From Hysterangium stoloniferum (Eukaryota > Basidiomycota > Agaricomycetes > Hysterangiales > Hysterangiaceae): a stretch of DNA of 64,000 nucleotides. The stretch spans positions 1,550,001 through 1,614,000 of the forward strand of contig WHVD01000001.1 of NCBI GenBank assembly GCA_015178975.1, given 5' to 3'. Below, in pieces: positions 10,601 through 59,083 of the stretch (position 1 is its first letter; each line of letters opens with the position of its first letter). The position numbers and the translations under genes were made by a program. The notes beneath the pieces were generated by a model. It searched no databases. It was not told the origin of the DNA and worked only from the letters and a program-made list of their open reading frames with translations.

Positions 10601-11404
10601 CGCCTTCCTCCTCAAGGTTAGTCAATAGTGTTATTCCATATGGTGACATTTATAACTTTTGCGCAGCTCCTACGTCCCGACTTTGCTGGAATCGTAAACC
10701 GTTCGCATAAAGACCATATTCTCTCCCTTGTCCGCCGACTTATCCGTCTACTTGGGTCCCCTGAAATTGCTGTTGACGACCGTCACACACCTAAACTATA
10801 CTCACGCTTTTTGTCGGGCCTTGTTGCGCGTTATTCCACACGTAAACCCAAGGGTGAAGCCGGATCGAAAGTCCCAGAAGGTACTGCACCCAAACAGAAC
10901 CGCAACAACAACCCAGCGCCAGACCCTAATGCGGGCTCGAATGTACAACAGAATGTTACACAAACGTCCCCGGCGCATCTCCTGAACGTCTCCGACGCCC
11001 AATACCAGAACCAGTATGGCCATCAGCAGGTGTCAATGTCTCCAGAGGCATATTCCTCGCCTTCCAGCATCAACAACTACCAATTCGATGAGCCGATGCC
11101 ATTACCCGAAGTGGTTCCAGAGGATTTTCTCGCATCAATGCAAGCGATCAACAACCCCGGTTGGTGGGAGAACGTCATGATGCCTGGCTTTACCTGGCCC
11201 GCTGTGGATCAAAATCAGATGGTGGCGCCTCCGACGGACGAGAATGGCATGACGGGTGTCACCGATACCGGTTTGGCGCTGAGTATTAATGGCCATAATG
11301 CTGCGCAGCAGCTGCAGCAGCAAGACTTCTCCTTCATGCCACATGAACCGCAGCCGATGATGCATCAGCACCAGCGCCAGCGCCAGCATCAGCATCAAAG
11401 ATGA
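7602..11404 (+). CDS. Zn2Cys6 transcription factor with fungal_trans domain (PrtT-like)
   Basis: Predicted nuclear regulator of about 1040 aa. Exons: 7602-8194, 8252-8389, 8445-9126, 9191-9209, 9262-9340, 9402-9612, 9691-10003, 10089-10185, 10247-10283, 10343-10436, 10491-10616, 10667-11404; the introns are 50-85 nt and all GT-AG. Basic and acidic patches precede a binuclear zinc cluster, C202-x2-C-x6-C-x9-C-x2-C-x6-C232, followed by the linker GPNKREYLLAQLRQKEAIID, an acidic stretch, then a fungal_trans domain (PPEILMHGLVTPDDVEELF, RCPFLFTVVCAIASRYYAP) and a Gln/His-rich tail. Introns cut both the zinc-cluster and linker codons, which supports the joins. One oddity: a run of nine G at 8946-8954 leaves the frame off by one nucleotide, either a real frameshift or a base-count error. 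The family usually controls proteases or metabolism; the target here is unknown. Confidence 0.88.
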
Positions 11405-19060: not shown

Positions 19061-20187
19061 GTGGCCAGTTCTACTACCACAACGCCATTTAGAGCCTCAA
19101 ACACCATAACTGTGACCCCTCTCAAGCAGACTTGCACGCCATGGCTAAGGGACAGCTATGACAATAGAGAAAGGTATAGAATTGTATTATGCAACGCCCT
19201 AATAGACACAAATGGAATAAAAATAAAAAAAGCGGACCATGTAGGTGAGATCAGCCTCATAGAAAAATAGTGACATGTTTGCGTACTCCGAACGGCAACG
19301 GGCACTAAGGTAAAATCGACCTTCCGATGGAATATTACTGATACGTGCATTGCTGTACAGCCACACTGTCCGACACCGCATATGGATGAGTCATATATGT
19401 GTGTACATTTATAGGTATGCTATATTTTCTTAATTATCGGATTAAAATACACCGATTAAAATACACCAGGTACAAAAAAGATTTCAAAATTAGTCACCGG
19501 ATTCCGGATGTATAACAGCCGACTCCGTTGGCTGATCCGGCTCACGGATACGGACCGTATTACGTTGTGGATCCCTACGGGAACCAGGCAATTAGTAAAT
19601 GTAAATCACATTCATTACATAAGGGAAGTATAATTGTTCCAAAGCAGCCGGTAACACGGCGTCTATAGTATTTGAGTAGTATCAACTGGTTTATCGGCGA
19701 CATGAAGCCGTTTATTAAACTGATGATTGAAAGGGTCTTGAGGAAGCAGCGAACTGGCAGTATCGAGTAGAAGCAAGAAGGTCAATTACCTCAATTCTCC
19801 ATTAGTCGGAGAGTCTCGTCATGCCTGACAACCAAGTTGGATCACACATCATGAACCAAAAGTAATAAAGAGCGTGGTTTTAAGTTACACTTTTTTGATG
19901 GCCAAAAAAAATGAACGCGCAAGCTATCTACGGCACACAACTCGGAACAGAAAAAACAAAACAACAAGCATGGAATGTGGCACTGGTATAAGTCTTTCGA
20001 TAGATGTGTGCGAGATGTGGAGTTTGCGATACCGAGGTTGCTATCCGGAGAAATAGGAATAATTATGCTTTGTGATGGGACGATTCGTCCGAGTCATCTC
20101 TCTCGTTGTGTCTCAGCACTGCTCGAAGACGAAGAAAGAAAGAAAGAAAAAAGCAAAAGAAGTTAATAAAAATATCGAGTCATGCTA
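19061..20187. other. No gene recognised
   Basis: Unassigned intergenic DNA. A direct repeat of CGATTAAAATACACC occurs at about 19439 and 19454. It includes the 3' flank of the transporter gene on the minus strand. Confidence 0.4.
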
Positions 20188-22255
20188 TTAGTGTAACGCA
20201 CCTTTGTCAACATCAGCACGGCGTTGCTCCCGGGTGATCGCACCGAAGATGACGTCCATCTGTTAAAACAATGTCAGACGATCGCCGAACCAGATCCACG
20301 TTGTGACCGCGCACCTCCTCAAGACTACGGCCCTGAGTCTCAGGCAAGAAGAGCGAAAAGACAGCCATGCCCCCCACATTGATGGTGGCGAACATCATGA
20401 ACAGCTTCCACTGCAATTTTGCCTCAAGAGTCGGTGTCTCCTTCGACACCACGAAGTCTGCAAAGGGACAGGTTCACATTATATGAGCAGCTGGCCCTCG
20501 TGTGACTATCGATCGAGACGAGAAAGACACGCACTCCAGAACCATTGCACGGCGCTCGCAAATGCCATTCCGTAGTGCCTTGTGCGGTTGGGGAATATAT
20601 CGGCACAGTATATCCACGGGACGGGACCCCAGCCCCATGAGTAGGCGACTACGTAAATGTAGAGAAGCCCAGCCATGGCCTGAGACGCTGGCGAAATAGT
20701 ACCGCCGACGATTGGAGGGTGGGTCTTGAGGATGGCACCGATAATGAAGAAGAGAGTGCCCATTCCGAGACCTGTGTCACGTCGTGGTTTGGACAAGGGC
20801 TTACGGATGACAATTGAGGTGGACTTACCACTGCCGACCAGTGCCCATTTACGTCCAACACGTTCAACGAGGAAGAAGACGAAAAGAGCAGTGGCCACGA
20901 CTTTTACGATACCATAGACACCAGAGGCGAGGAGTGCAGCAGATTCTGAAGAGTATCCGATGGACTTGAAGATTTGTGGGGCATAGTAGCCAACTGAGTT
21001 TTGGCCTGACCATTGTTGAAGGGTAAAACTGAAATAGAAAATATCAGAAAAAATCCGGTGTAGACATGCCGACAATCGATCACCCTTACATGCAAAAGGC
21101 AATAAAGAAACGAATCCCGTTTCCTTTTCCAAAGAATGCTTCCTTCAATCCAAGTCCCTGGCGCGCGGCGCGATCTTCTTCAATTGACGCCTCGATTTCT
21201 GAGCGAAGAGTATCAGTTCCGTCATCAACCGGTGACGAGGCACTCCACCCACCTGCTATCTCCATGCGCACACTCTCATGGTTCTCATCAAGTCGCCTTA
21301 AGCGCGCAAGGTTCTTGCGCGCCTCTGCGTTCCGACCTTTCTGAGCAAGCCATCTTGGCGACTCGGTTGCGAAAAGAAGTCCGACGCACATGATACCAGC
21401 TGGCAAGATTTGGAAGCCGAAAGGAATTCGCCAGATTTTAGGTCCGGAATGGAAGTGCTTGTTGACACCATCTGTGGGACCTGTTGTCAATATACATATG
21501 CGAAAGTATATGCAAGATCGGCTTACAGTTGATGAAGTAGCTGACCATCACACCTGTTGCAACGAGCACTTGGAACATTCCCGTGATGCGTCCACGGACT
21601 TCCTTGGGGGCACACTCGGAGACATACGCTGGTGCAACTGCGGAGATAGCCCCTATACCCAAGCCAGCGATGACACGCCCGGCGTAGATGTAGCTCAATC
21701 CGCGAGACCCCCCTGCGATTGTTTGGAGCACCTGGTGAAAGTGTTGAGTATAGCAAAACCAGGAAATAAAAGAGACAAGTGGTTACAGCGCCAACCAAGA
21801 AGATCGCCGAAAAGATCATGTTGCAATACCTCCGGCCAAGGTATGCTGTTTAGAGGGTCAACTTTTCTGAATACTCCATGTTTGGGAAGAATGCATACAG
21901 GACATTGGTGCGCTACCCAAAGCCCCAAAGAAGGCTCCAGCCTGGAGAACGGACACAACATTGGCACTGACTGTATTGACGTCCTTAGGCGCCACGTTAA
22001 ACGCCTTCTGGAAGGACACCTGCCCTACGACACCGCCGGCGATTCCAGCTATAACACAACGTGAATAAATTTAATATATATTCCAGGGTTTGGAAGGCGA
22101 CGGACTGTCATAACCAAAGAGGAAGATGCCCCAATAAGCGGTAAAAGCAATGACTTTTAAAGATAACGTTAGCTATACGTAACGCCCCGATCGGAGGAAG
22201 TTTAGGCCATACAGTAAACGTGATAATTCTGAAAGAAACCTTCAGCTTTGGACAT
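20188..22255 (-). CDS. MFS sugar/quinate-type transporter, 506 aa
   Basis: Plasma-membrane proton-coupled sugar or quinate carrier of the major facilitator sugar-porter family. Ten exons in transcription order: 22255-22213, 22153-22106, 22048-21917, 21845-21787, 21731-21527, 21471-21090, 21028-20829, 20771-20535, 20457-20315, 20259-20188; all phases agree and give 506 aa with no stop, a normal size. Motifs seen: FLFGYDTGIAGGVV in TM1, AGRVIAGLGIG, ESPRWLAQKGR, QQWSGQNSVGYYAPQIF, VERVGRKW, and PETQGRSLEE followed by MDVIFGAI. The exon-3 donor is a choice: GT at 21916 keeps the frame; a donor 13 nt further downstream would give a more usual loop but break it. The ATG at 22255 opens a 14-codon first exon, MSKAEGFFQNYHVY. 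Substrate is not decidable from sequence; the C-terminal block resembles quinate permeases. Confidence 0.9.
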
Positions 22256-23499
22256 GTCAACGGTCAAACACGAGTGCGAGGATGGGTGTTCAAGTCCAGG
22301 AAGCTTACCTTGTAGCTAACCGCCAGCAAATTGGTTTATAACAGGCTTCAGATCGGCAATCGGGTGGTATTTTCAATGATCGAGAGCGGCCGCGGCGCTG
22401 CTAGGCCCCGCCGGGCCGTTCGCGTGTGGGATTGCCCTACGTTTGGATTGGCGCCTCCAGCGGCTGACGACAGGGTTAACTGCGGTAACCTCCTACACCG
22501 ATAATGGTTTGCCTTTCTGGGCAAGGTCAAGGTCCCGGTAATTGTTGTCTGTCCAAGACTTAGCAAATTGCCCAACGAAAACGAGTCCAAACGTCGCGTT
22601 AAAAATTGTGTTGTGTTTGCGAGCCACAAGGTAGCCCGGAGAGAATTGACCGCTTTGTACGACCTTCATTAAATCCCAAAAACACACGAGCGCCTATCAC
22701 ACCATGCTCACGCGAGGAATTCACCGGGAATTCACCGGATGTCAAGCAACGCCGACGTAGATACATATTAGGACGTGTAAACCTTCCTGAGATATAACTT
22801 TGTGAATCGACTTAAATACAATGTGAAGGGAAAATGTGCCTGATATTACGGCAGCAAAGATAACAGATAATCTAGATAAGGCGCTTGAAAATACTAAGGT
22901 TATGGCTACCGTCATTTTCTTTATTGAACATGCTATGGGTTACAAGTCAGTGGATTTGGTTTAATTTAGTCTCACGATAGTGTATTATATCATTTTTTTT
23001 TCTTTTTGAAGCGTTTTATTTGTGATTGTGTATTGAGTGTAGAGTGGCCTGACATGACAGTGTGCAGGCCGAACTGGATTTTCATTTTCATTTAAAGACA
23101 AGATGGAGGTCATTTAGAATCTACACATGCGTAATTAGAATGTTCGAATTGTTATTTGTTATTTATAACACTGTGAAAAAAAAATTTAAAAAAATATCAT
23201 TGGCATTCAGGATATTTAAAAATATTTTTTCTGCGATTCAATCCATGTTAGTACGAGTGAAGTGCCGTGCGCTGCCATATGCGGTTCATGGTGAATTACT
23301 GTGCTTCGGGTGGGAATTACATAATACTGCCCCTCTCTGAAATTCTTTTCTTCTTTTGAATTTTATTTAGTCAATTAGGCATTTTGGAGCTTTGGGTCTT
23401 TGGGTGCTTTTGAACTTAGCACAGATGGGTGAGCACTCTACAAATGCTGGACAGGCATTAGGAGAGATTTGTGCTATTCTGATAGCAACTTAGTGGTAT
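22256..23499. other. Promoter side of the transporter and unassigned DNA
   Basis: The first few hundred bases upstream of 22255 should hold the transporter promoter. A GC-rich patch containing GCGGCCGCGG lies near 22387. No other gene was recognised. Confidence 0.4.
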
Positions 23500-24220
23500 T
23501 GTTAAGAACTAGAAACTGACTAATGTCGGTGGCCGACGGGGACCGATTGGGAGGACTTGGCTTCAGCTTATGTGCTGCGCCCTCGCAAATATCTGTAGGT
23601 TGTCCTTAAATTTCGGACAGGCGAAGACTAAATCCTAAGAAGAACCTTTCGGCGAGATACCGATCGGAACCGAAGGACAAGTCAAGTGTCGGGCCAAGGG
23701 ATCGGGGCCGAGAGTGGGCGAGCGCACGCGAAGGTGGAAGGGGGATTCTTCAGGTATGAGACTGCTACAGACGTATGAGGGTATTCTGAGTCGATATTCT
23801 GATTGCCTAGTAACTACAATTACAGCGAGTTCATATACAAGTAACAGGCGTCTAGAAAGTACTAATGGGGAGGAGGGCGGAAAACGGCATTAACAATAAG
23901 CTTGACTAGGAACAGGAAGTTTATGATTAGTTCGGAGGCCGATGATAACTGAGAATGGAAATTACGATAAAAGGAAATAGTTCGAGGACTACAAATATAG
24001 ATAGACATATGTGGAACATAAGATGAGACGGATCAACATGATGAAAGGGACATATCAAAGCATAACCAGACAGAAAGGCGTAGTCGGGTTTGATTGACCG
24101 GAGAGCATACATCAGCATTGGGGGACACAGCTTCCGAGATCTTGTATTGTCGAAGACGTATAACGAGGGTATTCCATCGGAGACCGTCGGCTTGCGAAGG
24201 GTTGCGACACAGTCGTAACA
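23500..24220 (-). mobile_element. Solo LTR, family C, target duplication GGTAT
   Basis: 721 bp, starting TGTTAAGAAC and ending AGTCGTAACA, flanked by GGTAT at 23495-23499 and 24221-24225. It carries the shared LTR box (23553-23578). It is a close relative of 55171-55914 and of the split copy at 24821-34319. A perfect target duplication with no internal region means excision by LTR recombination. Confidence 0.95.
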
Positions 24221-24225
24221 GGTAT

Positions 24226-24575
24226 GAAAATACATAATAAGTGTTACTGTGAAATGGAAAGATAATTTGGGCACTTACTATCAGCATTAAAAGTTCACTG
24301 AGGGATCATCTGAACTACACTACAAGTATAAAATAGTACATTTGAGAGGAGATACAATATGGATGACCCTCATTGGGTCATTTCAAGACATACTGTCTCA
24401 CCTTATTCATACAAGTGCTTAGTTTTTCAATACTCATTTCCTAATACTCCTTCTCAAGTTTTGAAGAACTAAGTCCTAAACACTGAGTATGATAAGAGTG
24501 GATGAGAGGAGAGAGTGGTTTTGTTAATATATCATTGACCATTTCTTTAGTCAAGTGACAGTGAAGTTGTATTGT
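24226..24575 (-). mobile_element. Copia-type pol end, fossil
   Basis: Reading the minus strand, the stretch around 24500-24570 encodes a TKEMVNDILTKPL-like block, the typical last part of copia-family RNase H. It is followed by a purine-rich tract and probable LTR sequence. It is the downstream continuation of the copia fossil at 34816-35840, from which it was separated by the insertion at 24576-34815. Broken. Confidence 0.65.
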
Positions 24576-25388
24576 TGTTAGGACTGGAAAGCCTGCCAGG
24601 CTCCAGACCCCATCCTACATGCACCCGACTCTCTACCCACCAGGTTACAGTTAACTGGAAAACCCGCTGGCATCCAGACCCTGCCTGATGGTACTGAAAG
24701 TACAGTCACAACTGGAGTACCTGCCAGGACCTGCACATATCAAACCTGTCTATATCCGACTCTGTCTCATGCACCAGTCACCAGACTCCACCTGGACAAC
24801 CTGTCAGCTCTCTAACTGAGTGTTACGACCATGTCGCAACCCGACAGTCCCCGAGGTTATCGCTACCTATCGACGTTTCAAGTTAGCATTCAAGTCATCA
24901 CATTGGAAACCATCGGTCTCCCAATGATGATGTATGCCTTCACGGTGATCAAACTCCGTTTATGCCCCCATCAAATATACTCGTACTATCTGGTTAAACT
25001 CTGATACATCCCCTTTTCACTATGTTGATCCATTTCACTCTATGTTTCACATATGTCTATATATACTTGTAACCCTCAGACTATTTCCTTTTCTCGTAAT
25101 CCCACTCTCGGTTATTTCATGGCCTCCAAACTAATCGTAACCTTCCCGTTCCTAGTCAAGCTTATTTGTCAATACTATTTTCCACTCTTCTCCTAGTTAG
25201 TATTTTCTAGATGCCGAATATTTGTATATGAACCTGCTGTTAGGATACACACACAAGCCAGGTTTCCGGAGAAACCCGCAGGTTATCCGGTAGGACTTGG
25301 CTTCAGCTTATAGGCTGCACCCTCGCTAGATCGTGTTGTCCAATTTCGAACAGGCAGACAGGGATCCCGGGGAGTCCGGGCGGGGTTC

Positions 25389-25440
25389 GTGGGTCGTAGG
25401 TCATAGGTTGTAGGTCGGAGGTCGGGGGTCGTGAGTCGAG
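25389..25440. repeat. Degenerate heptamer repeat
   Basis: About seven copies of a 7-bp unit close to AGGTCGT (variants AGGTCAT, AGGTTGT, AGGTCGG, GGGTCGT) within LTR F. Likely grown by replication slippage. Confidence 0.75.
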
Positions 25441-25926
25441 TTGGTTGAGAGAGATAGATGCGCCGGAGCCCGTGGGCTCTGACTAGTGGGAGCGATGTGA
25501 ATCAAGCAAGGGTTTAGAGCGGAAAATGTTATTAGATTACTGGGGGGAATCTAAGCTAATTTTCTGACTGGATTGCATGTACAACATCTGCCAGTTTATA
25601 TAGACCGTGGAATGCATGACATACCAAATCCAGTAATGACGAAATGAAACTAACAAAACATAAAATGGGAATAGTAAACACCAAATTGGTGTTAGGAACG
25701 GGACGGAACAGAGCGGAGTCTGAATCATGACAAAGCATAACCCATAACGGGAAACAGAGCGGGAGCGGAGTCCTAAATTGTGACAGGTCATTTGACTAAA
25801 ACGGGAATGGGGCTCGATTAGAGTGGTGATGGGATTCTAAGTGGGATCCGGTGACTGATGCGTGGGACGAAGACGGACATAGACAGAGACGGAGTCCGGG
25901 GGAAGTCCGGTGACTGATATGTGTCG

Positions 25927-26383
25927 TAATGAGGTCGAATGTAATGAGGTCGAATGTAATGAGGTCGAATGTAATGAGGTCGAATGTAATGAGGTCGAAT
26001 GTAATGAGGTCGAATGTAATGAGGTCGAATGTAATGAGGTCGAATGTAATGAGGTCGAATGTAATGAGGTCGAATGTAATGAGGTCGAATGTAATGAGGT
26101 CGAATGTAATGAGGTCGAATGTAATGAGGTCGAATGTAATGAGGTCGAATGTAATGAGGTCGAATGTAATGAGGTCGAATGTAATGAGGTCGAATGTAAT
26201 GAGGTCGAATGTAATGAGGTCGAATGTAATGAGGTCGAATGTAATGAGGTCGAATGTAATGAGGTCGAATGTAATGAGGTCGAATGTAATGAGGTCGAAT
26301 GTAATGAGGTCGAATGTAATGAGGTCGAATGTAATGAGGTCGAATGTAATGAGGTCGAATGTAATGAGGTCGAATGTAATGAG
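25927..26383. repeat. Perfect 15-bp tandem array, about 30 copies
   Basis: The unit TAATGAGGTCGAATG repeats without a single mismatch for 457 bp (about 30.5 units), then decays over one or two units (GAGTCTCGATG, then GTAATGGAGTCC). Because 15 is divisible by 3, several frames on both strands stay open and mimic pentapeptide-repeat proteins (NEVEC, MRSNV, LITFD); these are artefacts. The array lies inside LTR F. Confidence 0.97.
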
Positions 26384-26575
26384 TCTCGATGTAATGGAGT
26401 CCGGGTGGGAAATCCTATAAACAGACAATCGGTGCTTGTAGCACGTGGGGGGTGTACGGGTTAGTGCCCGGAGTCCGGCGGGATTGTCCGGTCGTAACAC
26501 CCGCTGTAGTTGTAGTTACTAGGCAATCAGAATATCGACTCAGAATACCCTCTTACACCTCCAGTAGTGTCATAC

Positions 26576-27140
26576 TGTTACGACCCGTTCCCGGATGTTT
26601 CAATATCCGACTTCCGATCCCCGACTTCCGACTTTCGACCTCTGACTATGGAACATCAAAGTTACCGTATCATCCGCATTCTTCCCTTGTTCCGCATTTG
26701 GTAATTTGTCCGTTGACAAGTATTCACTCATTTGTTTGTTATATTCCCGTTACGGAATATTGCCTCCCTAATATGTCTTATTGTATTTCCGTTTTAAGAA
26801 CACTTCCGTTTCTGTCCTATTATGGTCTTAGTTTGTAGTACAATAACGAGCAGACTTATATTAGTTTCCACGAATTTGTACTTTACCTTAGATCTGATAT
26901 CGACTTAGTTTCTTATTCCTCCTCCCGTCTTTCTGTACGCTCGATATTTGGAACTCTTCGGAACTCTGAATATCCGTATCTTCCATCATAAGTCTCACCT
27001 CCGAAATTAAGGACATTGAGCGTTTGTGTAGAGGCGCAGCACATAAGCTGAAGCCGACGTCCTGACCCTATCTAGTAGTTCCCGACTTCCCGGTGACTTC
27101 CTGATAGTTCCGGAATAAGTTCCCGACACGGCACTTAACA
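26576..27140 (+). repeat. Chromovirus 5' LTR
   Basis: 565 bp, TGTTACGACCCG to GGCACTTAACA, with the shared LTR box at 27036-27061. The probable primer-binding site begins right after it, with GTATATCAGA. Confidence 0.97.
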
Positions 27141-27174
27141 GTATATCAGATCTCAACTCTGCGACTCGCTCATC

Positions 27175-28401
27175 ATGGGTCCCAAACGCAAAGCTGCCGA
27201 AGGACCATCCCAACTTCAATCCCCGTTGCAACTTTACACCACTCAACCCGAAACCCCAATTCAGCCGACAACATCAGCTTCAGTCGAAGAAGTTACCGAG
27301 GAGGTTACCAAGGTAACGAAGGATCCCAATGATCCCCACACTTCCGACAACGAGGCAGAAGATCAGCCGGAGACATCGAAAAAGAAATCTTCCGACAAAC
27401 CGACTGAAATGTTGTTTATCAACTCCATTGTGAAATTCGCTGACTATTTGAAATCCGCTGAGGATAGTAAAGAATCATCCCGCACCGGAGTCAAAGAACC
27501 CGAACCTTTTACCGGCAAGGATCTGAAAAAATTGAAGAATTTCCTTCTCCAATGCTGTTTTAGTTTCCGTGATCGACCCAATGCTTTTAAATCCGACAGT
27601 CGAAAAGTCAATTTTGCGCTCTCATATCTCAAGGATACCGCTCAGGATTGGTTTGAACCCGGACTATCTGGAATATCCGACGAGACACCCGTATGGCTCG
27701 ACGACTGGGATGCTTTCATGGAAGAACTGGAAACTAATTTCGGACCTTACGATCAATCCGGCAAAGCAGAAAATGAACTAATGACGCTCAAGATGAAGGA
27801 CAATCAATGAGTTTCCGATTATCTTGTCAAGTTCAATACCCTCGCCGCACGATGTGGATGGGACGATTCCGCCCTCAGGCACCATTTCTATATGGGACTT
27901 CCGTCACACCTTAAAGACGAAATCTGCAAAGATGGAAAGCCGAAAACTCTCCAACTCATGCGGATGAAAGCTCAAACATCCGATGCCCATTATTGGGAAC
28001 GAAAAGCCGAGGTTTCTCGAGAGAACCCGACGGAACGTTCTCAGAACAACAAGGCGTCGACTAGCAAGTCTTCCGGCAACAACTCAGGCAATAATACTGG
28101 CTCTGGCACTAATACTGGCAAATCAAATTCCGACCGGAAGAAAGACAAGAAATCCAACAAGGAGAAACAGTCAACTTCCGACAAACCCAACATTTCCCAT
28201 TTGTTGGGTACCGACGGTAAACTCACCCCGAAGGAGAAACAACGACGTATGGACAACGACCTCTGCCTTTTCTGTGGGAAAGGTGGACACAAGGTTTCCG
28301 ACTGTACCGTTAAATCTAACTCTTCCAAGGCTCGCGCGGCAACTTCCACTACGACTACAACATCTAAGGAAAAACCCGCCACGGAGTCGAAAAAAGAGTA
28401 A
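27175..28401 (+). pseudogene. Chromovirus gag region (fossil)
   Basis: Gag-type coding region: an acidic and Lys-rich N-terminal part, a retrotransposon_gag-like middle with the LKDTAQDWFEP block, a Ser/Asn-rich linker, and a CCHC zinc knuckle of the form C-x2-C-x4-H-x4-C (CLFCGKGGHKVSDC, about 28262-28303). Start chosen at the ATG at 27175, 35 bp after the LTR. Gag would form the particle and bind RNA. Broken; treated as a fossil. Confidence 0.88.
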
Positions 28402-28539
28402 GCAACCCTCCGGAATCTGCACGGACAGAGGGTTGCGTTGACTCTCTCCGTGTTTCCGAGGTTATCCGTCTCAACGCGTCCGCTCTCTCTAACCCCGACT
28501 CATTATTTGTAAAACTCGTTTCTGACTTTCTTGGAAATT

Positions 28540-31500
28540 TAGTGTTCTGAGCTCTGATAGATTCCGGCTCCACACACTGTTTTGTAGATACCACTTTTGC
28601 CATGAAACATAATCTGAAACTCCATTCTGTTCCCGCAATTTCCTTGCATCTGTTTGACGGCACTAGCAATATGGCAATTACCCAAGCCTGCGACATGTCT
28701 ATCCGGTTCCCTTGTGGAACATTCCAGACGGTTACCTTTTTCGGACCACAGTTGGACTCTAGCTGTTCGGTAGTTCTTGGATACAACTGGCTCACCCGAT
28801 ATAATCTGTTGATTGAATGGGTATTGGGCAGTATTAATTTCCGGATTCCCGACACTTCGGTTCCTCCTGCAGCGTCTTTTCCGGCCAACGCCTTTTCGGC
28901 ATCTACGGCACCTCTGGCTTCTACCGAAACCTCCGTGCCTCCAAAAATCTCTCTCATCAACGCTTCGGCATTTGTTAGGGCGAGTAAACTGGACGGTTCG
29001 CAATGTTTTTCGATCAGCTTAAAAGTTGATGAAGCATCTGGACATTTTGTGACTCCAGAATTATCTGAGCTAAAAGCTGACCTGGAAGGAGTTCCCGAAA
29101 AATACCATGATTTCGCAGACATTTTCAGTAAGCAAAAAGCTGACAGGCTTGCACCACATAGGCCTTACGACTTAAAAATCGATATTGAGCCCGGTTCAAA
29201 CCCTCCGTTAGGACCTATTTACCCATTATCCCAATCGGAACTTTCGTTCTATTCGGGAGTTCCTGGATGAACATCTGTCAATAGGTTTTATCCGTCCCTC
29301 AAAGTCTCCGTATGGAGCACCCGTCCTTTTCATCCGAAAGAAGGATGGTTCTCTTCGACTCTGTGTCGATTTCAGAGGATTAAATTCCATCACACGGAAA
29401 GACAAGTACCCACTTCCACTCATTACCGATCTACTCGACGCCCCACGGAAAGCCCGGATTTACACCAAGATAGACCTCAAACACGCCTATCATTTGGTCC
29501 GAATTGCCAAGGGCGACGAATGGAAAACTGCTTTTCAGACTCACTATGGATCCTTTGAATGGTTGGTTATGCCGTTCGGCCTTACCAACGCCCCTTCCGC
29601 TTTTCAACATTTTGTTAATGATATATTTTCCGACATGCTTGACGTATGTGTTATAGTCTATTTGGACGACATTTTGGTATTTTCCGAGGATCCCGCTCTT
29701 CACGACGAACAAGTCTGTGAAGTCTTCCGAAGACTCCGTAAAAACGGTCTTTTCGCCAATGGTAAAAAATGTTATTTCAACATGGATTCTATTGAATACT
29801 TAGGTTTCATCATCGGCCCTGATGGTCTCCATATGGATGAAACCAAGGTTCAAGTTGTCCGTGATTGGCCCGAACCACGGAAAGTCAAGGATATTCAGTC
29901 ATTTTTAGGTTTCGCCAACTTTTACCGTCGTTTTATTCGGAACTACTCGGATATTACAGTACCGCTCACTCGTCTTACCCGTAAAACTCAACCATGGGTC
30001 TTTGACGACAAATGCCGCTCCGCTTTCCAGACTTTAAAAGATGCTTTCACTTCTGCCCCGATCCTTTCCCATTGGAAACCTGATGTTCCGATTATTGTGG
30101 AAACCGATGCTTCCGATTATGCAATTGCCGCGATTCTTTCCATTCAAGATTCCGACGGTGAAATTCATCCGGTCGCATTTCTTTCTCGGACACTTTCAGT
30201 ATCCGAACTCAATTACGACATTCATGATAAGGAACTTTTGGCTATTTTTGAAGCTTTCAAACATTGGCGCCATTATCTCGAAGGTTCCGCAACTCCCGTT
30301 GACGTTGTTACTGATCACAAAAATCTCGAATATTTTTCTACCACTAAACTTTTAACCCACCGGCAGGCCCGCTGGTCCGAATTCCTCTCTGCTTTCAATA
30401 TGATTATCCGTTTCCGACCTGGACGTCTTGGTGGAAAACCAGATGCCATGACTCGACGATGGGACGTCTATCCTAAAGAGGGGGAAAGTAACTACGCTGT
30501 TGTTAATCTGCATAACTTGAAACCGGTTTTTACAATGCAACAACTTTCCGCATCTATCCGAGCAACTTCCCTTTACTATCCAATTATGCGTAGCGTCATG
30601 ATTATGGACATTGAGCAATTACATCAAGATATCCTTTCCGCACTCACTTCCGACCCGGCCCTCAAGCCACATTTAGAAGTTCCCAACAATCCCGACCAAC
30701 CCCGATGGTCACAAGACTCTCAAGGTTTTATCCGTCTCGATGGACGTATCTACGTTCCAGATTCCAACAATCTCCAACTCCGTGTACTTCAGTATAAACA
30801 CGATCATCCAATCTCCGGACATTACGGCATCAACAATACTCTTGGTTTAATCCGTAGAGAATATACTTGGCCCAACCTCCGAGATTTCATAACTCAGTTC
30901 TGTAAGTCATGCACCACCTGCTTACGCTCCAAAACCCAGAGGCATAAGCCGTACGGCCTTCTCAAGCAACTCCCGATACCAGAAAAACCGTGGAATTCAA
31001 TTTCCATGGATTTTATCGAACAACTCCCGACTTCCGAAGGCTTTACATCCATTCTAGTTGTTGTGGACCGATTCTCGAAACAAGGCATTTTCATACCCAC
31101 TCATGATACAATCACGTCCTTACAATTAGCGGAACTTTTCATTATTCACGTATTTTCCAAACACGGAGTTCCATCTCACGTAACTTCCGATCAAGGCTCC
31201 AAGTTCGTTTCCCAATTCTTCCAGGCCCTCAGAAAAGCCCTCGACATGAAACTACACTTCACCTCGGGATATCACCTGGAAGGTGATGGACAAACGGAAT
31301 GCGTTAATCAAACACTGGAACAATATCTCCGCATCTATTGTAATTACCAACAGGACAACTGGAAATCCCTTCTTCCGATCGCGGAATTCGCCTACAATAA
31401 CTCTCCGAATGCAACCACCGGCATATCTCCCTTCTTCACCAATAAAGGCTATAATCCGAATCTCACAGTACATTCCGAACGAGATTTGGCTTCTGTCCGT

Positions 31501-31870
31501 GCTCAAGAATTTATTACTGACCTCGACAAATTACATCAAGAACTTCGGAAAGCTATTTCTTCCGCACAGGAATATTATCAACGTTCCGTGGACAAAAACA
31601 GGATCCCGCCTCCTAATTTTAAAATCGGTGATCAGGTTTTTGTAAAAGCTCAATTCTTCCGTACTACCTGACCTTCTAAAAAACTCGCTGAGAAATTCTT
31701 AGGACCTTTTGAAATTATAGCACAAGCCGGTTCACTTTCATGGACCCTCCGTCTTCCCGACAGTATGCGAGCCACCCCATTTTCCACATTTCCATGTTAG
31801 AACCTTGTGTTCCTAACTCATTCCCGGAACGTATACAACCTCCGTCTCCTCCGGTCATCATTGATGGAGA
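28540..31870 (+). pseudogene. Chromovirus pol region (fossil)
   Basis: Pol-type coding region with domains in family order: aspartic protease (DSGSTHCF near 28560), reverse transcriptase (YLDD near 29656, preceded by the [11 protein letters not shown] block), RNase H (ETDASDYA near 30100), the HHCC zinc domain of integrase (about 30800-30930), and the integrase core with its Asp-Asp-Glu block (31000-31320). Chromoviruses use this set to copy their RNA and insert the DNA. Broken in a few places; treated as a fossil. Confidence 0.9.
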
Positions 31871-32084
31871 ACCCGAATTTGAAGTTTCCGAAATTTTGGA
31901 TTCTAAAATCGACAATCGCCGATGTACTTGTAAATTGCTCTATTTAGTCAAATGGGCAGGTTATGAAGGTACCGACGAGGAAACTTCATGGATATTGGCC
32001 ACGGAACTTGGACATGCTATGGAAATTGTTACTGACTTCCACACGGCTTATCCAGGCAAACCCGGACCTTTATCATCACTTTAA
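31871..32084 (+). pseudogene. Chromodomain at the pol C-terminus (fossil)
   Basis: Reads EFEVSEILDSKI, then YLVKWAGY, then SWILATEL, the three blocks of a chromodomain, ending at 32082-32084. In chromoviruses this module steers integration to histone-marked heterochromatin, which fits the nested position. Part of the broken element. Confidence 0.88.
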
Positions 32085-32169
32085 TCTTTCTGTTCTTTTC
32101 TGTTCAGTTTCCGACACTTCCATTTTCACACTCGTTTTAGGTTTTGCAAGTCAAAAAATATTATTAAAT

Positions 32170-33311
32170 CTATTTCAAAGTCTCTGACACCCCAAAGCCA
32201 CCTTCCGTCCCAACTTCCGGCTCTTCAGCAATTTCCGCACTTTCCACCATATCCTGTACCTCTTCATCTTCACTCTCTGATTCTTCTGGCCCATTTCCTG
32301 ATGCCCACCTTTTTTCAACACTTTCCGCTAATGGATCTTTAGGCTTTTCCCGTGCCTTATCGGAAAACCTCTCGGATACTGCGATTACACCAATGCTAAC
32401 CATTATCTTCTCCAGGAAATTGTTTTGCCTCCGGAAATTCCGGATCAACGAAGGGAAACCTTTCTCCTGGATATCATTATGGCGATCCATTGTATCCCGC
32501 ATTTTCATGACTTCCGTCCCGATAAAAACCAACGCGTCGACGGTTTCCTTGAGAAGCTCAATGCCCATACTATCCGTTTTCGAAGCTTCAGTTTCCGTAG
32601 CTTTGGCCGCTCCTGAACTTCCCGCATCGTTAGCTTTCGGAGTCTTCTCACCTTTCGGAACCCTTTTTGAGGCAAGGGTGCACGGAAGTTTGAGAACCGC
32701 GCAGGGATAACAAGTTCCGCCCCATTTTACCTTCTGCTTCCAACAAGTCATGTTCCGTATGGAACATCGATAACACGGAGTTTCATGGACGACTTCCATT
32801 CGTTCCGGAGCTTTGACCTTTGGTTTCTGTTTCGGAAGTTAATGACTACCGTTTCCTTTACAGATGCACTCACTTTAGGACTCGAAGGTCCAGCTTTGCC
32901 CTCTACTTCCACCTCCACGGCTTTTCGCTGCATCAATAGTTATTGGTTGGAATCACGGAATGTATGGGTCAAACCTACCTTTCCTTCCCTTATCTCCTTC
33001 AGTTTTTCTGCCATCTCCGACTCCCGCTGTAATTTTTCCACCTCCTCTTTCTTTTTCTGCGCCTCCACCATTTTCCGTATCCATGCTTCTTTTTCCGCCT
33101 TTGCCCGCTCCAATTCCCACTTTTCCACCTCCTCCGCATCCTTCAACTCCTGCATCAATGCTCTTTCCTCCTCCTCCTGTCGTCGCTTCAACTCCTCCAT
33201 TTTCTGGTGTTTTTGTTGAAGTTCTGCGACCTTCGACATCTTTTGAAGTACGGATATTTCGGTATCTGAGTCTTCCGGGGTAGTGATGAACAACGGCCGA
33301 CGAATGGACAT
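32170..33311 (-). pseudogene. Antisense accessory coding region of the chromovirus (coiled coil and Cys6 cluster)
   Basis: Open minus-strand stretches between the chromodomain and the 3' LTR, opposite to gag-pol. The piece from 33311 to 32940 begins MSIRRPLFITTPEDSDTEI and is then almost all charged heptads of Glu, Lys and Arg (a coiled coil of about 85 residues). The piece from 32799 to 32170 has six cysteines spaced C-x2-C-x6-C-x10-C-x2-C-x6-C, the spacing of fungal Zn2Cys6 clusters but with few basic residues between Cys2 and Cys3, then a Lys/Ser-rich linker and an acidic tail. Codon use looks protein-like. It is broken now. Whether it is one gene or two, and its function, are unknown. Its position inside both LTRs shows it moved with the element. 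Confidence 0.7.
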
Positions 33312-33482
33312 ACAAGTTGTGGTTGAAGAAACAAAAACGTTAATTCGAATATTTGGAGGTTTTTATACTCAGAATCACAGCCGAAACTCTCACCTCCATA
33401 TTTGCATAAATTTCACGACACATAACAATCAGCCGTCGCTTCAAACACTTAGTACCTAATCGCCTCTATGGGATTTCGGCCT

Positions 33483-33495
33483 AACAGGGGGGTAC
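33483..33495 (+). promoter_or_regulatory. Polypurine tract of the chromovirus
   Basis: The run ACAGGGGGGTA lies immediately before the 3' LTR, where plus-strand DNA synthesis is normally primed. Confidence 0.75.
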
Positions 33496-34060
33496 TGTTA
33501 CGACCCGTTCCCGGATGTTTCAATATCCGACTTCCGATCCCCGACTTCCGACTTTCGACCTCCGACTACGGAACATCAAAGTTACCGTATCATCCGCATT
33601 CTTCCCTTGTTCTGCATTTGGTAATTTGTCCGTTGACAAGTATTCACTCGTTTGTTTGTTATATTCCCGTTACGGAATATTGCCTCCCTAATATGTCTTA
33701 TTGTATTTCCGTTTTAAGAACACTTCCGTTTCCGTCTTATTATGGTCTTAGTTTGTAGTACAATAACAAGCAGACTTATATTAGTTTCCGCGAATTTGTA
33801 CTTTACCTTAGATCTGATATCAACTTAGTTTCTTATTCCTCCTCCCGTCTTTCTGTACGCTCGATATTTGGAACTCTTCGGAACTCTGAATATCCGTATA
33901 TTCCATCATAAGTCTCACCTCCGAAATTAAGGACATTGAGCGTTTGCATAGAGGCGCAGCACATAAGCTGAAGCCGACGTCCTGACCCTATCTAGTAGTT
34001 CCTGACTTCCCGGTGACTTCCTGATAGTTCTGGAATAAGTTCCCGACACGGCACTTAACA
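33496..34060 (+). repeat. Chromovirus 3' LTR
   Basis: 565 bp, same ends as the 5' LTR, shared box at 33956-33981. About 97.5% identical to the 5' LTR. Confidence 0.97.
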
Positions 34061-34815
34061 CATACTAAGTATCCCGCTATCCGCCTTCACATGTGCTCAC
34101 CCACTCTAGGTCCCCGACCCCTCGGCCCGACACTCGACTCATCCTTTGGTTCTGATCAGCAGCTCACCGAGAGGTATTCATTAGGACTAGTCTTCGCCCG
34201 CCCAAAATTTAAGGACACCCGACTGTTAGTTGCGAGGGCACAGCACATAAGCTGAAGCTAAGTCCTTATGATCGGTCCCCATCAGCCTACTGACATTAGT
34301 CAGTTTTCAGTTCTTAACACTGAGCCCCATTCCCATTATGGTCAAATAACCTGTCATGTTTTGCACCCTGCTCCCATTCTGTTCTGTCCCTAATGCCTAG
34401 TTTGGTGTTTACTTGTCTCATTTCATGATTACTTGCTTTGATCTTTATTATTACTGGATTTGGTATTGCACAGTCTATATAGTCTAGCTAATGTTGTACA
34501 TACAATCCAGTCAGAAAATCAACTTAGTTCTCCCCCAGTAACTTAGTATATATTCCACTCTATCCCCATCTAAACACAATGCTATCGACCTCATTGGAGC
34601 CCATAGGCTTTCCAACTGGCCTCCTGACCTATCAACTGTTCAAGCTATTGACCTATGTATCAACTACTCCCAGACTCCCTGGGTTTTCTGTCCGCCTGTT
34701 TTAAATTGGACACCATGACCTCACAAGAGTGCAGCCTATAAGCTCAAGCCAAGTCCTACCAGATTATCCACAGGTTTCTCTGGAAACCCTCCATGAGCCT
34801 GCATGTCCCTTAACA

Positions 34816-35840
34816 ATCGTTCTGCTTTCAATTACAGTAGATGTCAAATATAATGATATTTTACCTCAATACATTTCATCCATTGTAAACATGTTGATTG
34901 TAAGTGAATGCTATGTGCCTTGATTATCTTCAAAAACAGTCATCAGCTCTTCATCTATTATATTGAGTTCTTCCAAGAAGTGCCTCATCTGCATGATTTT
35001 GTGAGCTGCTTCTGAAAGTGCAATATATTCTGCTTATATAGATAAAAGTGCAACTTTTGTCTACTTTCTCAAGGGCCAAGATATAAGTCCTGAGCTGAGG
35101 AAAATGGCATAGCATTCCATGAATTGTCTGTCCTCAGTATCATCTGCAAAATCTGCATCAAATACCTGTGCAAACATAGTTCAAAATTTCAGGTGGTGTA
35201 CAGATTTTTTAGAACACATTTGGCTAAGTTCTAATGTGTTTGTGCTGGATTGGATGAATCCTGAGATGATTTGTTGACAGAATATGAGATACAATCTGGT
35301 CATGTTACAATGGATGTGAACATGAGGCTCCCAATGAGCTCTCAATATGGTAATTTCACTATTTCTTCTTTCTTTCTTTATTTCTGGTTGCAGGATAGAA
35401 TTGAAATTGATTCTGAGGATAATTGGGGACTGAGTTGGTTTTGAATTATGTACATTAAACTTCTTTGCAATTCAATATAATCTTTCTAAGATATGAGTAT
35501 GGATTTTGATTCAGTGTCACATCAGATAAAATCTCTAAAATCCAGTGGGCTTTTGCCTTGATACACCTAACTGTTTGCTAAATGACTTTCTAGATCTAGA
35601 AGACATTTTTCATCTCCCACTGATGTTGTATCATTGACCTAAAATGTGACCACAGCCCAACTGTCATCATTCCATGTTTTGAAAAATATGGCATTATCAA
35701 ATTGGAATATATCCAGTTGAGTTCTTTAACCATAAAATTGTATAATGTTTTCCTTCACTCATTTCCTCCTTGTCTTGTCCCATATGATGCCTTCAACAGT
35801 GGTAGCAACAAATGTTCTCTCCCACATTCTTCAAACTGAG
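34816..35840 (-). mobile_element. Copia-type pol (RT to RNase H), fossil
   Basis: On the minus strand, around 35650-35830, reverse-transcriptase blocks of the Ty1/copia kind (TRQGGNEW, NFMVKEL) appear. Around 34850-35050 RNase H blocks follow (SEAAHKIMQMRHFLEEL, FEDNQG). It continues at 24226-24575 on the other side of the big nested insertion. Heavily broken and CpG-poor; old. Confidence 0.75.
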
Positions 35841-36356
35841 CATGAGGGCAAGGTGGGAGTATGAGGGTGAGGTGGGAGCATGAGTGTGAGGTGGGAATTA
35901 TTGTACTACTAATCTGGCAAGATAAAAAGACAAAATGGGTGAATAAGAAACAAGGCAGGGTTGTATTATAATGAAAAAGGGAGGTGGATGTGAGGCACTG
36001 GAAGTGCAGGAGCTCAGACATAGACATGGACATGAATGAGCAAATGTAAATTTCACCAGTGTGCACTATGGACCCACAACAATATACAAGTTGTAGTTAA
36101 TGTGTAGAGTCACTAAATCTAACACTCCCACCTGATGAGACCCATATCTAAGTAATAACTCCCACCTGAAAAAAAATAATCAAATCCTAATAAGAACTTT
36201 AGGGGGACTGGAAGAAGGAGATAATGGTAGTAGTAAAGACCTGTATGAATATTTATTAACAATGGTGGAAGATAAAACTTGTTCTGTTTGATGAGCAGTG
36301 TTGGTAGAGGACGATGAAAAATATGGTGGCTTTGGAGGACCACTTATGACCCATTC
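35841..36356 (-). mobile_element. LTR-like stretch with purine tract, probably copia-type
   Basis: Three tandem copies of a ~19-bp GAGGGTGAGGTGGGAGTAT-like unit lie at 35845-35900. On the minus strand CAGGTGGGAG directly precedes TGTTAGATTT near 36127, as a polypurine tract precedes an LTR. Ends not defined; identity tentative. Confidence 0.4.
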
Positions 36357-36645
36357 TGTTAAGTGCTGTGTCAGAACCTATTCCAGAACTATTGGAAAGT
36401 CACTGGGAACTCGGAAACTATCAGATAGGGTCAGGACATCAGCTTCAGCTTATGTGCTGCACCTCTACACAAAATGCTCAAGAGTCCTTAATTTCAAAGA
36501 TGGGACTTACACTGGAAGATATGGATATTCAGAGCTCCGAAGAGTTCCAAATATTGAGTGTACAGAAAGATGGAAGTTGGAATAAGAAACTAAGTCGATA
36601 TAAGATTTAAAGTAAAGTACAAATTCATGGAAACTAATATAAGTT
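36357..36645 (-). mobile_element. Truncated old copy of the chromovirus LTR
   Basis: Aligns along its length with the reverse complement of the 3' half of the LTR at 26576-27140, from TGTTAAGTGC through the shared box (36434-36460) to the ACTAATATAAG block. Many CG pairs of the younger LTR are TG or CA here. The 5' half is missing. Confidence 0.85.
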
Positions 36646-36649
36646 TTCT

Positions 36650-37600
36650 CATATTATAGACACAAAATGCAGCAATATGACCTGGGTGACCATAATGGTG
36701 ACAGTGACCTTCATTGGTAGGATCATACCAATGAAAACCTTTATCATCTTCTAAAACAGGTGGTGGAGTAGTGCCTGACCTAGAGAATTTACCAGGTTGT
36801 TTCCAAACATTCCCACACTTTGGACCATCTGCTGTAAGGGAGTGAGACTCCCTACACTGTGATTTGGTAATATTGAGTCTCCATTATTACCCACTCCATT
36901 GTAGTCCACATCCTATTGTAGTCCACATCCTATTGTGCTTACATCCCATTGTTCTCCATTAGTATATATTATGTACATGTGGATTTCAATACAGTAGTGG
37001 TTTATTCCTCATCACTCATTCTAGTGTCTGTCTGCACCTGCAGCAGATACTAGTCTTACACTGCATATGCAACATCAACCAGCTCATATTTGATGGCAAT
37101 GGCAGAGGAGGCTGAACCAATGAGAATCGCTTTGACCATTGGAAAGAGAGGGTTCAGATTTGGCAGTGAGAATGGAAGTACAAATGGTGTGATAGGAAGG
37201 GTGAAGGTTCATGAGGAGGAGATCCAATGTTTGACAATCATTGATGGTGAAACCCCAAAGATATGAGGTTCTGGAAAGTGCTTTCAATAGTATGGATGTA
37301 AATGTTGATGGATTTAGAAGGATCAGCTCAATATGATAAAAATCCTCATGACATTTGAAATGACAAGCCATTGTAGACCTCTGGAAGTGTTCCCTCACTG
37401 CTTTCCAAGCAGCTAAACCTGAAGTCTTCCCTAAACCAAATACTGCAACTCATTGCTAATAGCAGATGAGATGATGGCTGCCATTGCTTATCTGTTTGCA
37501 CAGATGCAGCAGGGAAAGTGGGAGCAACAGCATCATCATCATCTGTAATCCAAAAGGCACCAGCACCTAAAAAGACCATGGACATATTACATCTCTCCAT
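36650..37600 (-). mobile_element. Copia-type gag, fossil
   Basis: Minus strand. A UBN2-type gag part (RSTMACHFKCHEDFYHIE and LLLMNLHPSYHTI, 37200-37395) is followed after the small LTR by HCHHYGHPGHIAAFC (36660-36720), a zinc-knuckle relic. Probably the gag end of the same old copia element as 34816-35840. Broken. Confidence 0.65.
36833..37060 (+). mobile_element. Small solo LTR inside the copia gag fossil
   Basis: 228 bp, TGTAAGGGAG to TAGTCTTACA, with CTGC on both sides (36829-36832 and 37061-37064). It separates two blocks of gag-like sequence that continue each other in order. Probably copia-type from its short length. Confidence 0.6.
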
Positions 37601-55935: not shown

Positions 55936-56656
55936 TGTTAGGATTCTATCATTTCAGACCCCTGCAACTTGGTTTTACCCTCATAACCCTCCAGCACTCT
56001 GCTATTAGTATCCCTGACCACAGTGTCACCTGCAGCACCCTGACACCTGTCCCTCTGTAGATTACCCTTTAACCACCCTATCCTGTCTCCATCCCAATGC
56101 TGTCTGATCACCCATTCTCTGTGTATCTTTTATTTGCCACCTCACAGCCTTTAGAATACTTGTGTCTTATGTATCACATTTAGTCTTAGTTTGATCCTTG
56201 CCCTTTTCCCACTTCCTTTGACCCATCATACCTTCTCACTTCCTTGGTCAGCCTTCTGATCATCCATCATACTTTTGTATAAAGACTCTCTCATGTATAC
56301 TATAGCTTTCCAGTTTGAATATTGACTTATTGTAGATTACCCTCCTCTTGTTTAAGTCCCCTTTACTCTTCTCTTAATACTCTCAAAGATGTCATCAGCA
56401 AACCACAACTCTTACCCATATGACTCTTAGTATTTTGGCACTCTAGTCAATTGAGCTAAGTGTTGTCTTTAGTCTCCATCATACTATCTACTCTGTTTGA
56501 AATACTGGAGCATTAACAGTTCATGTGAGGGTGCAAAACACAAGTTGAAGCTAAGCTCCACTTGTTTTATAGAGTCAGACTTTCTAACTAGTATGATTTC
56601 TATTGTTGGCCCCCTGGCATAGATCCCCTTTGCCCCTTTGAGCTTAGATCATAACA
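55936..56656 (+). mobile_element. Solo LTR, family A, target duplication GAATT
   Basis: 721 bp, TGTTAGGATTC to TAGATCATAACA, flanked by GAATT at 55931-55935 and 56657-56661. The box is diverged (56531-56560). It lies only 21 bp from the previous LTR and in the other orientation. Confidence 0.95.
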
Positions 56657-57010
56657 GAATTCTATAAATGGAAGTATCTGAGTTATGTAAATTGATGTTT
56701 TTAGGTTTAATACCTATGTCTTTTGTGTGCATATTATTTAAATAAATGTAATATTAAAGGACACATGCTGATCTTCACAGCTAAGCTCCACTTGTTTTAT
56801 AGAGTCAGACTTTCTAACTAGTATGATTTCTATTGTTGGCCCCCTGGCATAGATCCCCTTTGCCCCTTTGAGCTTAGATCATAACAGAATTCTATAAATG
56901 GAAGTATCTGAGTTATGTAAATTGATGTTTTTAGGTTTAATACCTATGTCTTTTGTGTGCATATTATTTAAATAAATGTAATATTAAAGGACACATGCTG
57001 ATCTTCACAG
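56551..57010. repeat. Perfect 230-bp tandem duplication
   Basis: 56551-56780 and 56781-57010 appear identical. The unit covers the last ~106 bp of the solo LTR plus 124 bp of flank, so it arose after the LTR insertion. Identity suggests a recent event or an assembly error. Confidence 0.93.
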
Positions 57011-59060: not shown

Positions 59061-59083
59061 GATTCAACACCACACTGTAGAAC

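Follow-up and report, generated by a model that had tools for sequence, protein, structure and literature searches.

Antisense accessory genes have been described in LTR retrotransposons of both fungi and plants. In Botrytis cinerea, the element Boty / BcGypsy1 carries the antisense gene brtn (PMC7264820, PMC8365987, PMC4227169, PMC5987419), and plant elements encode antisense open reading frames (aORFs), among them the TRP28 proteins of Retand, gene23 of maize Grande, and the aORFs of RIRE2 and PvRetro13 (PMC11963269, PMC7264820). Within the literature examined, the antisense accessory genes of plant and fungal LTR retrotransposons have no established function. According to the papers that cite it, Boty resembles the element described here in being a chromodomain-bearing Ty3/gypsy element of a fungus whose antisense gene lies between pol and the 3' LTR; the citing passages mention no cysteine cluster, introns or motif load. 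The plant aORFs also lie antisense between pol and the 3' LTR, some of their products are described as nuclear or predicted to bind DNA, and gene23 has its own promoter; however, they belong to other protein families, and Retand falls outside the chromoviruses. None of the words intron, zinc and fung appears in the Retand paper (PMC11963269), and the aORF review likewise lacks intron and zinc (PMC7264820).

The DNA analysed here is a 64,000-nucleotide stretch of the Hysterangium stoloniferum genome (hereafter, the window), part of a 111-Mb assembly on which the genome searches were run. A Ty3/gypsy chromovirus spans 26576-34060 (7,485 bp), with the following landmarks.

26571-26575 and 34061-34065: target-site duplication CATAC, 5 bp; duplication and element ends read from the sequence
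26576-27140, plus strand: 5' LTR, 565 bp, 97.5% identical to the 3' LTR
27175-32084, plus strand: gag, protease, RT, RNase H, integrase and chromodomain, recognised with Pfam; several broken frames in the window copy
31878-32042, plus strand: chromodomain (PF00385), 27.7 bits against a cut-off of 25.1
33496-34060, plus strand: 3' LTR, 565 bp, from the LTR comparison

Within gag-pol, the Pfam families DUF4939, RVP_2 and Chromo score above the cut-off and Retrotrans_gag slightly under it, while RVT_1, RNase H, Integrase_H2C2 and rve are also recognised. The assignment to the Ty3/gypsy chromoviruses follows from RT, RNase H and integrase in gypsy order, a C-terminal chromodomain, LTRs and a target-site duplication. 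In the window copy gag-pol is split into several frames; other copies retain open frames of up to 1,247 aa that end in the chromodomain. Directly upstream of the chromovirus, 25926-26396 consists of a 15-bp tandem repeat in 31 near-perfect copies. Elsewhere in the window, 56549-57010 holds two identical 230-bp tandem copies, and 59081-63346 is a 1,421-codon open frame that reads as an apparently intact copia-type polyprotein.

An earlier note on this DNA had claimed protein-like minus-strand sequence, in two separate pieces, between the chromodomain and the 3' LTR. Such sequence is indeed present, as the open frames 32170-32838 and 32940-33362, which extend far beyond chance. The two pieces, though, read as exons of one predicted gene, whose stop codon and ATG coincide with the limits then given (32170-33311) and which is intact in the window although gag-pol is broken. 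Joining 33311-32979, 32927-32874 and 32826-32170 on the minus strand gives 347 codons plus a stop; the predicted gene thus runs from an ATG at 33311 to a stop at 32170, encodes 347 aa and is interrupted by two GT-AG introns (51 and 47 nt).

33361-33367, minus strand: TATA box (TATAAAA) for the antisense gene, whose ATG follows 56 nt downstream
33312-33495, minus strand: spacer of 184 bp holding the antisense promoter
32979-33311, minus strand: exon 1, 111 codons; ATG followed by a Glu/Lys/Arg-rich stretch read as a coiled coil; dN/dS 0.26
32928-32978, minus strand: intron 1, 51 nt, GTAGGT...CAG in the window copy
32874-32927, minus strand: exon 2, 18 codons, RKAVEVEVEGKAGPSSPK; 54 nt in 87 of 88 copies
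32827-32873, minus strand: intron 2, 47 nt, GTGAGT...CAG
32170-32826, minus strand: exon 3, with a lysine-rich start, the cysteine cluster, a long helix, an acidic tail and the stop codon
32680-32775, minus strand: six-cysteine cluster C-x2-C-x6-C-x10-C-x2-C-x6-C; each cysteine in 86-88 of 88 copies; dN/dS 0.14
32347-32583, minus strand: predicted long helix of exon 3 (exon 3 residues 82-160), AlphaFold2, pLDDT 56-73 by blocks

Most copies have GTAAGT or GTGAGT as donors. The joint between exons 2 and 3 creates KKPKVK, which we take to resemble a nuclear localisation signal. The cysteine spacing is exactly as the earlier note had it, and the Glu/Lys/Arg-rich stretch of the second frame and the acidic tail are present too. 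Its statement that the local copy is a fossil proved wrong for the antisense gene: the apparent break corresponds to two introns, and because these account for the frame breaks and the full spliced frame is kept in the window copy, the fossil reading was discarded. Gene structure, promoter position, purifying selection and cysteine conservation argue for a functional accessory gene of the chromovirus, whose transcript would be spliced.

The promoter and the position of the gene are both highly regular. TATAAAA was found in 84 of the 85 copies with sequence at the site and TATAAAG in the remaining one, while three of 88 copies have no sequence there. The chromodomain lies within 400 bp of the antisense gene in 70 of 70 copies with fetched flanks and an LTR within 500 bp in 68, these 70 having been found through the antisense gene itself; of three loci picked by pol alone, two carry the antisense gene plan and one a remnant. 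The gene runs opposite to gag-pol, sits between pol and the 3' LTR and is kept in most copies, the arrangement of an antisense accessory ORF, and the earlier note was right to call it an antisense accessory gene of a chromovirus. It is convergent with pol, the two stop codons being 86 nt apart. Introns opposite to the genomic RNA can persist, since the replicating RNA is unspliced on that strand. Considered against the retroelement life cycle, the upkeep of both introns therefore suggests a separate spliced antisense transcript.

Selection on the gene was assessed across copies. The genome search returned at least 150 copies (150 of 993 candidates were scored), from which an alignment of 88, including the window's own, was drawn. 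Both introns retain GT-AG in 84 of 88 aligned copies, and the whole spliced frame (ATG, no stop, both GT-AG pairs) is kept in 39, the window copy among them. Relative to the window copy, 73 of 88 copies have an intron 2 of another length, and in none of them is the difference divisible by three; for intron 1 the length differs in 65 copies, with 36 differences divisible by three. Length changes affect exon 3 in 33 copies (29 divisible by three), exon 1 in 57 (47 divisible by three; three copies lack part of the exon) and exon 2 in one. Frame openness was counted in those 76 of 88 copies where the lengths of exons 1 and 3 can both be divided by three. Here exon 3 is stop-free in its antisense frame in 67 of 76 and in the other five frames in none, while exon 1 is stop-free in its own frame in 48 and in a second antisense frame in 24.

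The substitution pattern is that of a protein under constraint. Cysteines 1 to 6 are kept in 87, 88, 88, 88, 88 and 86 of 88 copies, respectively. Diversity at exon 3 codon positions 1, 2 and 3 is.083,.077 and.209, against.234 in intron interiors. Over all 741 pairs of the 39 intact copies, dN/dS is 0.24; grouped by age it falls from 0.66 in the three pairs with dS below 0.02, through 0.46 in 23 others, to 0.18 in the 60 whose dS is above 0.6, remaining at 0.18-0.31 wherever dS exceeds 0.05. This drop with age is the pattern of drifting dead copies atop a constrained active lineage. Of the regions compared, the cysteine cluster has the lowest ratio (0.14), followed by the acidic tail (0.18), the helical part (0.19) and exon 1 (0.26); the linker that comes after the cluster stands at 0.54. 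On two of the points by which the earlier note had proposed to judge the gene, dN/dS well below 1 across copies and conservation of the cysteines, the data agree with it.

Some features of sequence variation deserve separate mention. In 70 copies, diversity at the third codon positions of exon 3 (32173-32826) is.172, roughly double the values at third positions of pol (.083 and.074; pol region 31200-32081); that of the LTR (33496-33899) is lower as well, at.03-.11 by 50-bp steps in the same copies. Distances between copy pairs in pol and exon 3 correlate (r = 0.82). A swapping of the antisense gene between pol lineages was considered and rejected, there being no pair with pol below 3% and exon 3 above 10% and none with exon 3 below 3% and pol above 8%. 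Only exon 1 is discordant, 99 of 2,276 copy pairs having pol below 3% but exon 1 above 12%; exon 1 (32979-33311) occurs in different types that do not track pol, hinting at recombination.

The gene plan extends beyond the window family. Three loci (L089, L090 and L091), 78%, 80% and 84% identical in the chromodomain region, were taken from a pol search to avoid selection by the antisense gene, and L092, which is related to L089 and present in many copies, was added later on the strength of its antisense gene. In L089 and L090 the antisense gene is present in diverged form, and L091 keeps only the last ~51 codons of the window type. L089, L090 and L092 share a TATA box that precedes the ATG by 57-60 nt, two introns of 48-50 nt placed, as in the window gene, at phase-0 joints (...GK|RKA... 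and ...K|K...; intron 2 of L090 occupies 859-908 in its own coordinates), a coiled-coil-like exon 1, and six cysteines in the order C-x2-C-x6-C-x9/10-C-x2-C-x6-C. Between cysteines 3 and 4 the spacing is x10 in the window family and L090, and x9 in L089 and L092. By reading, exon 1 of L089 contains a frame break, and exon 3 of L090 either stops early or holds a third intron, while L092 is open across the placed exons and ends at a TGA at 1187-1189. The L089 protein is 26% identical to the window protein over 108 columns (E = 1e-4) and that of L090 41% over 34 residues (E = 0.37); at such low identity the antisense gene therefore diverges far faster than the chromodomain region. Genome searches with the L089 and L090 proteins found at least 150 copies each. 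Two diverged element families thus share the antisense gene plan, and the homologues that the earlier note had anticipated in other elements were found at the same place, antisense and near the chromodomain and LTR. Several L089-type copies share one score and one TGA, which in L092 is its own stop, so that this subfamily looks recently amplified. Searches of viral_contigs and genome_contigs and a profile search of PDB sequences, which are viral, prokaryotic or structural collections uninformative on fungal spread, returned no relatives.

The nature of the cysteine cluster requires a more reserved statement. Fungal Zn2Cys6 domains (PF00172) follow C-x2-C-x6-C-x5-12-C-x2-C-x6-8-C, and the clusters of the window family, L089, L090 and L092 fit these limits. 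The Pfam profile Zn_clus, with a curated cut-off of 21 bits, gives the window protein 8.6 bits and L089, L090 and L092 8.0, 14.1 and 10.2; a sub-cut-off match appears in 30 of 59 aligned exon-3 proteins, the best at E 0.32. When segments were shuffled with the cysteines fixed, one of five window shuffles scored 12.9 bits (real segment 8.6) and four had no Zn_clus match, while three of five L090 shuffles scored 11.2-12.5 bits, under the real 14.1. Shuffles thus match in four of ten cases, and the Zn_clus resemblance is therefore mostly or wholly one of spacing. Full Zn2Cys6 membership, or common descent with Gal4-type factors, was not accepted, the profile scores lying under the cut-off and shuffles matching as well. 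Of the earlier description of a Zn2Cys6-like cluster with a coiled coil, the spacing and a coiled-coil-like stretch stand, and true membership (8.6 bits against 21) goes beyond the evidence. A binuclear zinc cluster is a reasonable chemical reading of the spacing, and the product is probably a nuclear protein with an acidic tail, presumed to dimerise through its coiled coil and to bind zinc.

Other comparisons contributed little to the identity of the protein. The AlphaFold models are weak (pLDDT 47.9 for the whole model including the exon 3 helix and 55.2 for the cluster model), and Foldseek with the latter weak model returned no match. The matches listed up to an E-value of 10, both for the window proteins and for the 59 exon-3 proteins, include neither TRP28 (PF04195) nor SMC, and no captured host gene was found as a source of the antisense gene. 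The window also contains, at 7600-11400 (7600-8444 in a narrower placement), a host gene with a Zn2Cys6 cluster, ACRYCKKLKMRCEF...CKRCQSGNHEC, probably a transcription factor with introns; its Zn_clus score of 18.9 bits is itself under 21, and it reached 22.8 in the genome search. That search gave 76 Zn_clus matches at E up to 1, which, like the host gene itself, suit a fungal host. On contigs C56, C115, C209, C308 and C309, frames carry several Zn_clus matches close together, unlike ordinary Zn2Cys6 factors.

The most surprising part of the element is an unexplained load of one short word.

26576-34060, both strands: 86 dispersed TTCCG/CGGAA sites in 7,485 bp

At the flank rate 12.6 such sites are expected and under a dinucleotide model 24.0, with none of 100 shuffles reaching the observed score; TTCCG/CGGAA is the element's top 5-mer both against the flanks and against dinucleotide shuffles. 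Each strand is enriched (sense 60 against 14.6 expected, antisense 26 against 9.8). Under a stricter second-order model the excess is modest: for the sense strand of the internal region 27.3 sites are expected and 48 are seen, which makes the motif the top 5-mer at a score of 3.9, and in an 11-kb stretch of host DNA the highest-scoring 5-mer reaches 3.7. Each 500 bp holds 3-9 sites inside the element and 0-3 in the flanks (20001-26500, 34001-37000), with a drop at the LTR edges. Density per kb is 11.5 in the window element, 2.0 in L089 and L090, 1.7 in the flanks and 0.7 in the copia element; the 5.5 per kb of L092 is not significant (7 against 4.7).

The load extends into coding DNA. Against synonymous-codon shuffles, pol holds 28 sites versus 12.7 (top among all 5-mers, reached by 0 of 1000 shuffles), the antisense CDS 17 versus 7.1 (top, level with the overlapping GGAAA; 0 of 1000) and the sense strand of the second gag frame 7 versus 2.0 (0 of 300). 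No excess over codon shuffles appears in the first gag frame (3 versus 1.4), the protease (3 versus 1.4) or the window's copia element (3 versus 6.3). The LTR and the antisense region are enriched too, while the promoter spacer (33312-33495) has no site where about two are expected at the element's mean density. Motif density falls with copy divergence (r = -0.80, 70 copies). Among 70 copies, 95% of changes at CpG sites (31200-33899) are to TpG or CpA, and the C of CpG is changed at a frequency 1.7 to 2.9 times that of C followed by A, T or C. Such decay is methylation-like or RIP-like, and cytosine methylation would produce a pattern of this kind. Diversity of non-CpG bases inside and outside motifs is.015 and.032 in pol,.058 and.089 in the antisense region, and.015 and.041 in the LTR; of ten NNNCG contexts with enough sites, one (ATTCG) varies even less than the motif. 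On the gene side of L090, CCGAY occurs 21 times against 5.5 and TTCCG 3 times against 4.2, AGGAG being the top 5-mer there; on the pol side of the same family (L093), TTCCG stands at 9 against 2.8 and CCGAY at 12 against 5.8, and neither exceeds codon shuffles. The L090 family data speak against a simple protein-word pairing. AAGTC was tried as a word of L089 and dropped, six of 100 shuffles reaching its score and the word being frequent in the window LTR as well.

We propose, as a reading with an even chance of being correct, that the antisense gene encodes a DNA-binding accessory factor that targets its own element. Transcription of the gene would start on the antisense strand from its own TATA promoter, next to the 3' LTR on the inner side, and the nuclear, zinc-binding product, dimeric through its coiled coil and bearing an acidic tail, would bind the element's own DNA at the short CCG-containing motif TTCCG/CGGAA loaded over the whole element. 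Binding would then control transcription or silencing of the element family in trans, the direction of the effect being conjectural. CCG/CGG triplets are the classic half-site of Zn2Cys6 proteins. The earlier note had suggested that the protein could act on the element's own LTR or on host genes; for action on its own DNA, the motif load across the whole element is circumstantial support, DNA binding itself being presumed. Protein and motif are linked by analogy, and a host factor could read the motif instead. The combination of an element-wide word, a fast-changing protein and methylation-like decay resembles the VANC system as far as its published account describes it (PMC5735166). A more specific version, which we put forward tentatively as a possibility on the unlikely side, is a self-targeting anti-silencing or activating system in which a fast-diverging antisense zinc-cluster protein reads a CCG-based word, families hold specific protein-word pairs, and the whole is an independent counterpart of VANC. 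The word would have accumulated across the entire element, even at synonymous positions of pol, in part of gag and in the protein's own gene.

Several other explanations compete with a self-targeting factor. The antisense protein might be a self-limiting repressor like deltaretrovirus HBZ/APH, lowering sense transcription from the LTR and keeping copy number tolerable, a doubtful reading. In its favour, the published outline of HBZ/APH gives the same layout (antisense, spliced, at the 3' end, with coiled coil and acidic region), and both lower 5' LTR expression (PMC10186651). Families of at least 150 copies suit it as well, but a repressor acting on the LTR alone need not explain motifs throughout pol and the antisense CDS, and activation and repression look alike in the sequence evidence. 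A different protein role (nuclear import, integration-site choice or particle assembly), with the TTCCG load due separately to a host factor, nucleocapsid or a mutational cause, is similarly rather unlikely. The link between protein and motif is indirect, and the sense strand holds the motif more often (60 versus 26), as an RNA signal would; enrichment on both strands suits a double-stranded DNA site better, however, and the antisense CDS is enriched too.

Readings without an antisense protein fare worse. Antisense RNA might itself matter, convergent transcription yielding double-stranded RNA that feeds silencing or masks pol; the gene does converge on pol with its stop those 86 nt away, and antisense transcripts of plant elements have been proposed to act thus (PMC7264820). 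We consider this improbable: dN/dS of 0.18-0.31 at dS above 0.05, together with conserved cysteines and splice sites, calls for a protein. Chance open frames, or a sense-strand gene and no antisense gene at all, have next to no probability in our judgement. In their favour, the window has a sense frame of 180 aa that overlaps exon 3, and one sense frame has a dN/dS of 0.30, which arises because its wobble base is shared with the antisense frame; the four other wrong frames give 1.65, 1.08, 1.21 and 1.36. Sense-strand coding of exon 3 was rejected, all three of its sense frames containing stops in 76 of 76 copies, and the strand that bears the intron signatures and the TATA box is the antisense one.

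The window family combines numerous copies and clear selection with a defined gene structure and a word that is a candidate target, and so makes the function of such a gene directly testable by binding assays. Annotation can readily overlook genes of this kind or take them for host genes, since they are antisense and split by introns. The literature search found no report of a spliced or cysteine-cluster antisense gene, or of a motif load, in a fungal retrotransposon, most subscription literature lying outside its scope. The words antisense and zinc are absent from a survey of fungal LTR elements (PMC3248453) and from papers on Laccaria TEs and Tcn1-like chromoviruses (PMC3411680, PMC2864245). 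As far as these sources go, antisense accessory genes are already known, from Boty brtn and Retand, and the cysteine cluster, splicing and motif load are without an earlier report found.

Among better understood systems, HTLV-1 HBZ/APH shares with the window gene the plan of a spliced antisense gene at the 3' end of a retroelement, and HBZ has a coiled coil (bZIP) and an activation region; in the account available, however, HBZ is a bZIP protein read from a TATA-less promoter inside the 3' LTR, whereas the window gene has a cysteine cluster and a TATA box outside the LTR (PMC10186651). Gal4-type Zn2Cys6 factors (PF00172) resemble the window protein in cysteine spacing and in nearby coiled-coil-like and acidic regions, but the window protein falls below the Pfam cut-off and carries its cluster in mid-protein. 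The window family also lacks a strongly basic loop between cysteines 2 and 3, a feature of Zn2Cys6 factors. VANDALs are DNA transposons, another kind of transposon. If the window protein reads TTCCG, retrotransposons too could evolve sequence-specific control with their own regulator and sites, and a DNA word could be accumulated across coding sequence. VANC of Arabidopsis VANDAL elements, as its published description has it, is an element-coded, diverging protein paired with a short motif that is concentrated in its own family and scarce outside it, and the motif of the window element shows a distribution of this kind; the VANC motifs are mainly non-coding, often in tandem repeats and bound demonstrably, whereas those of the window element also lie in coding DNA and are candidate sites (PMC5735166).
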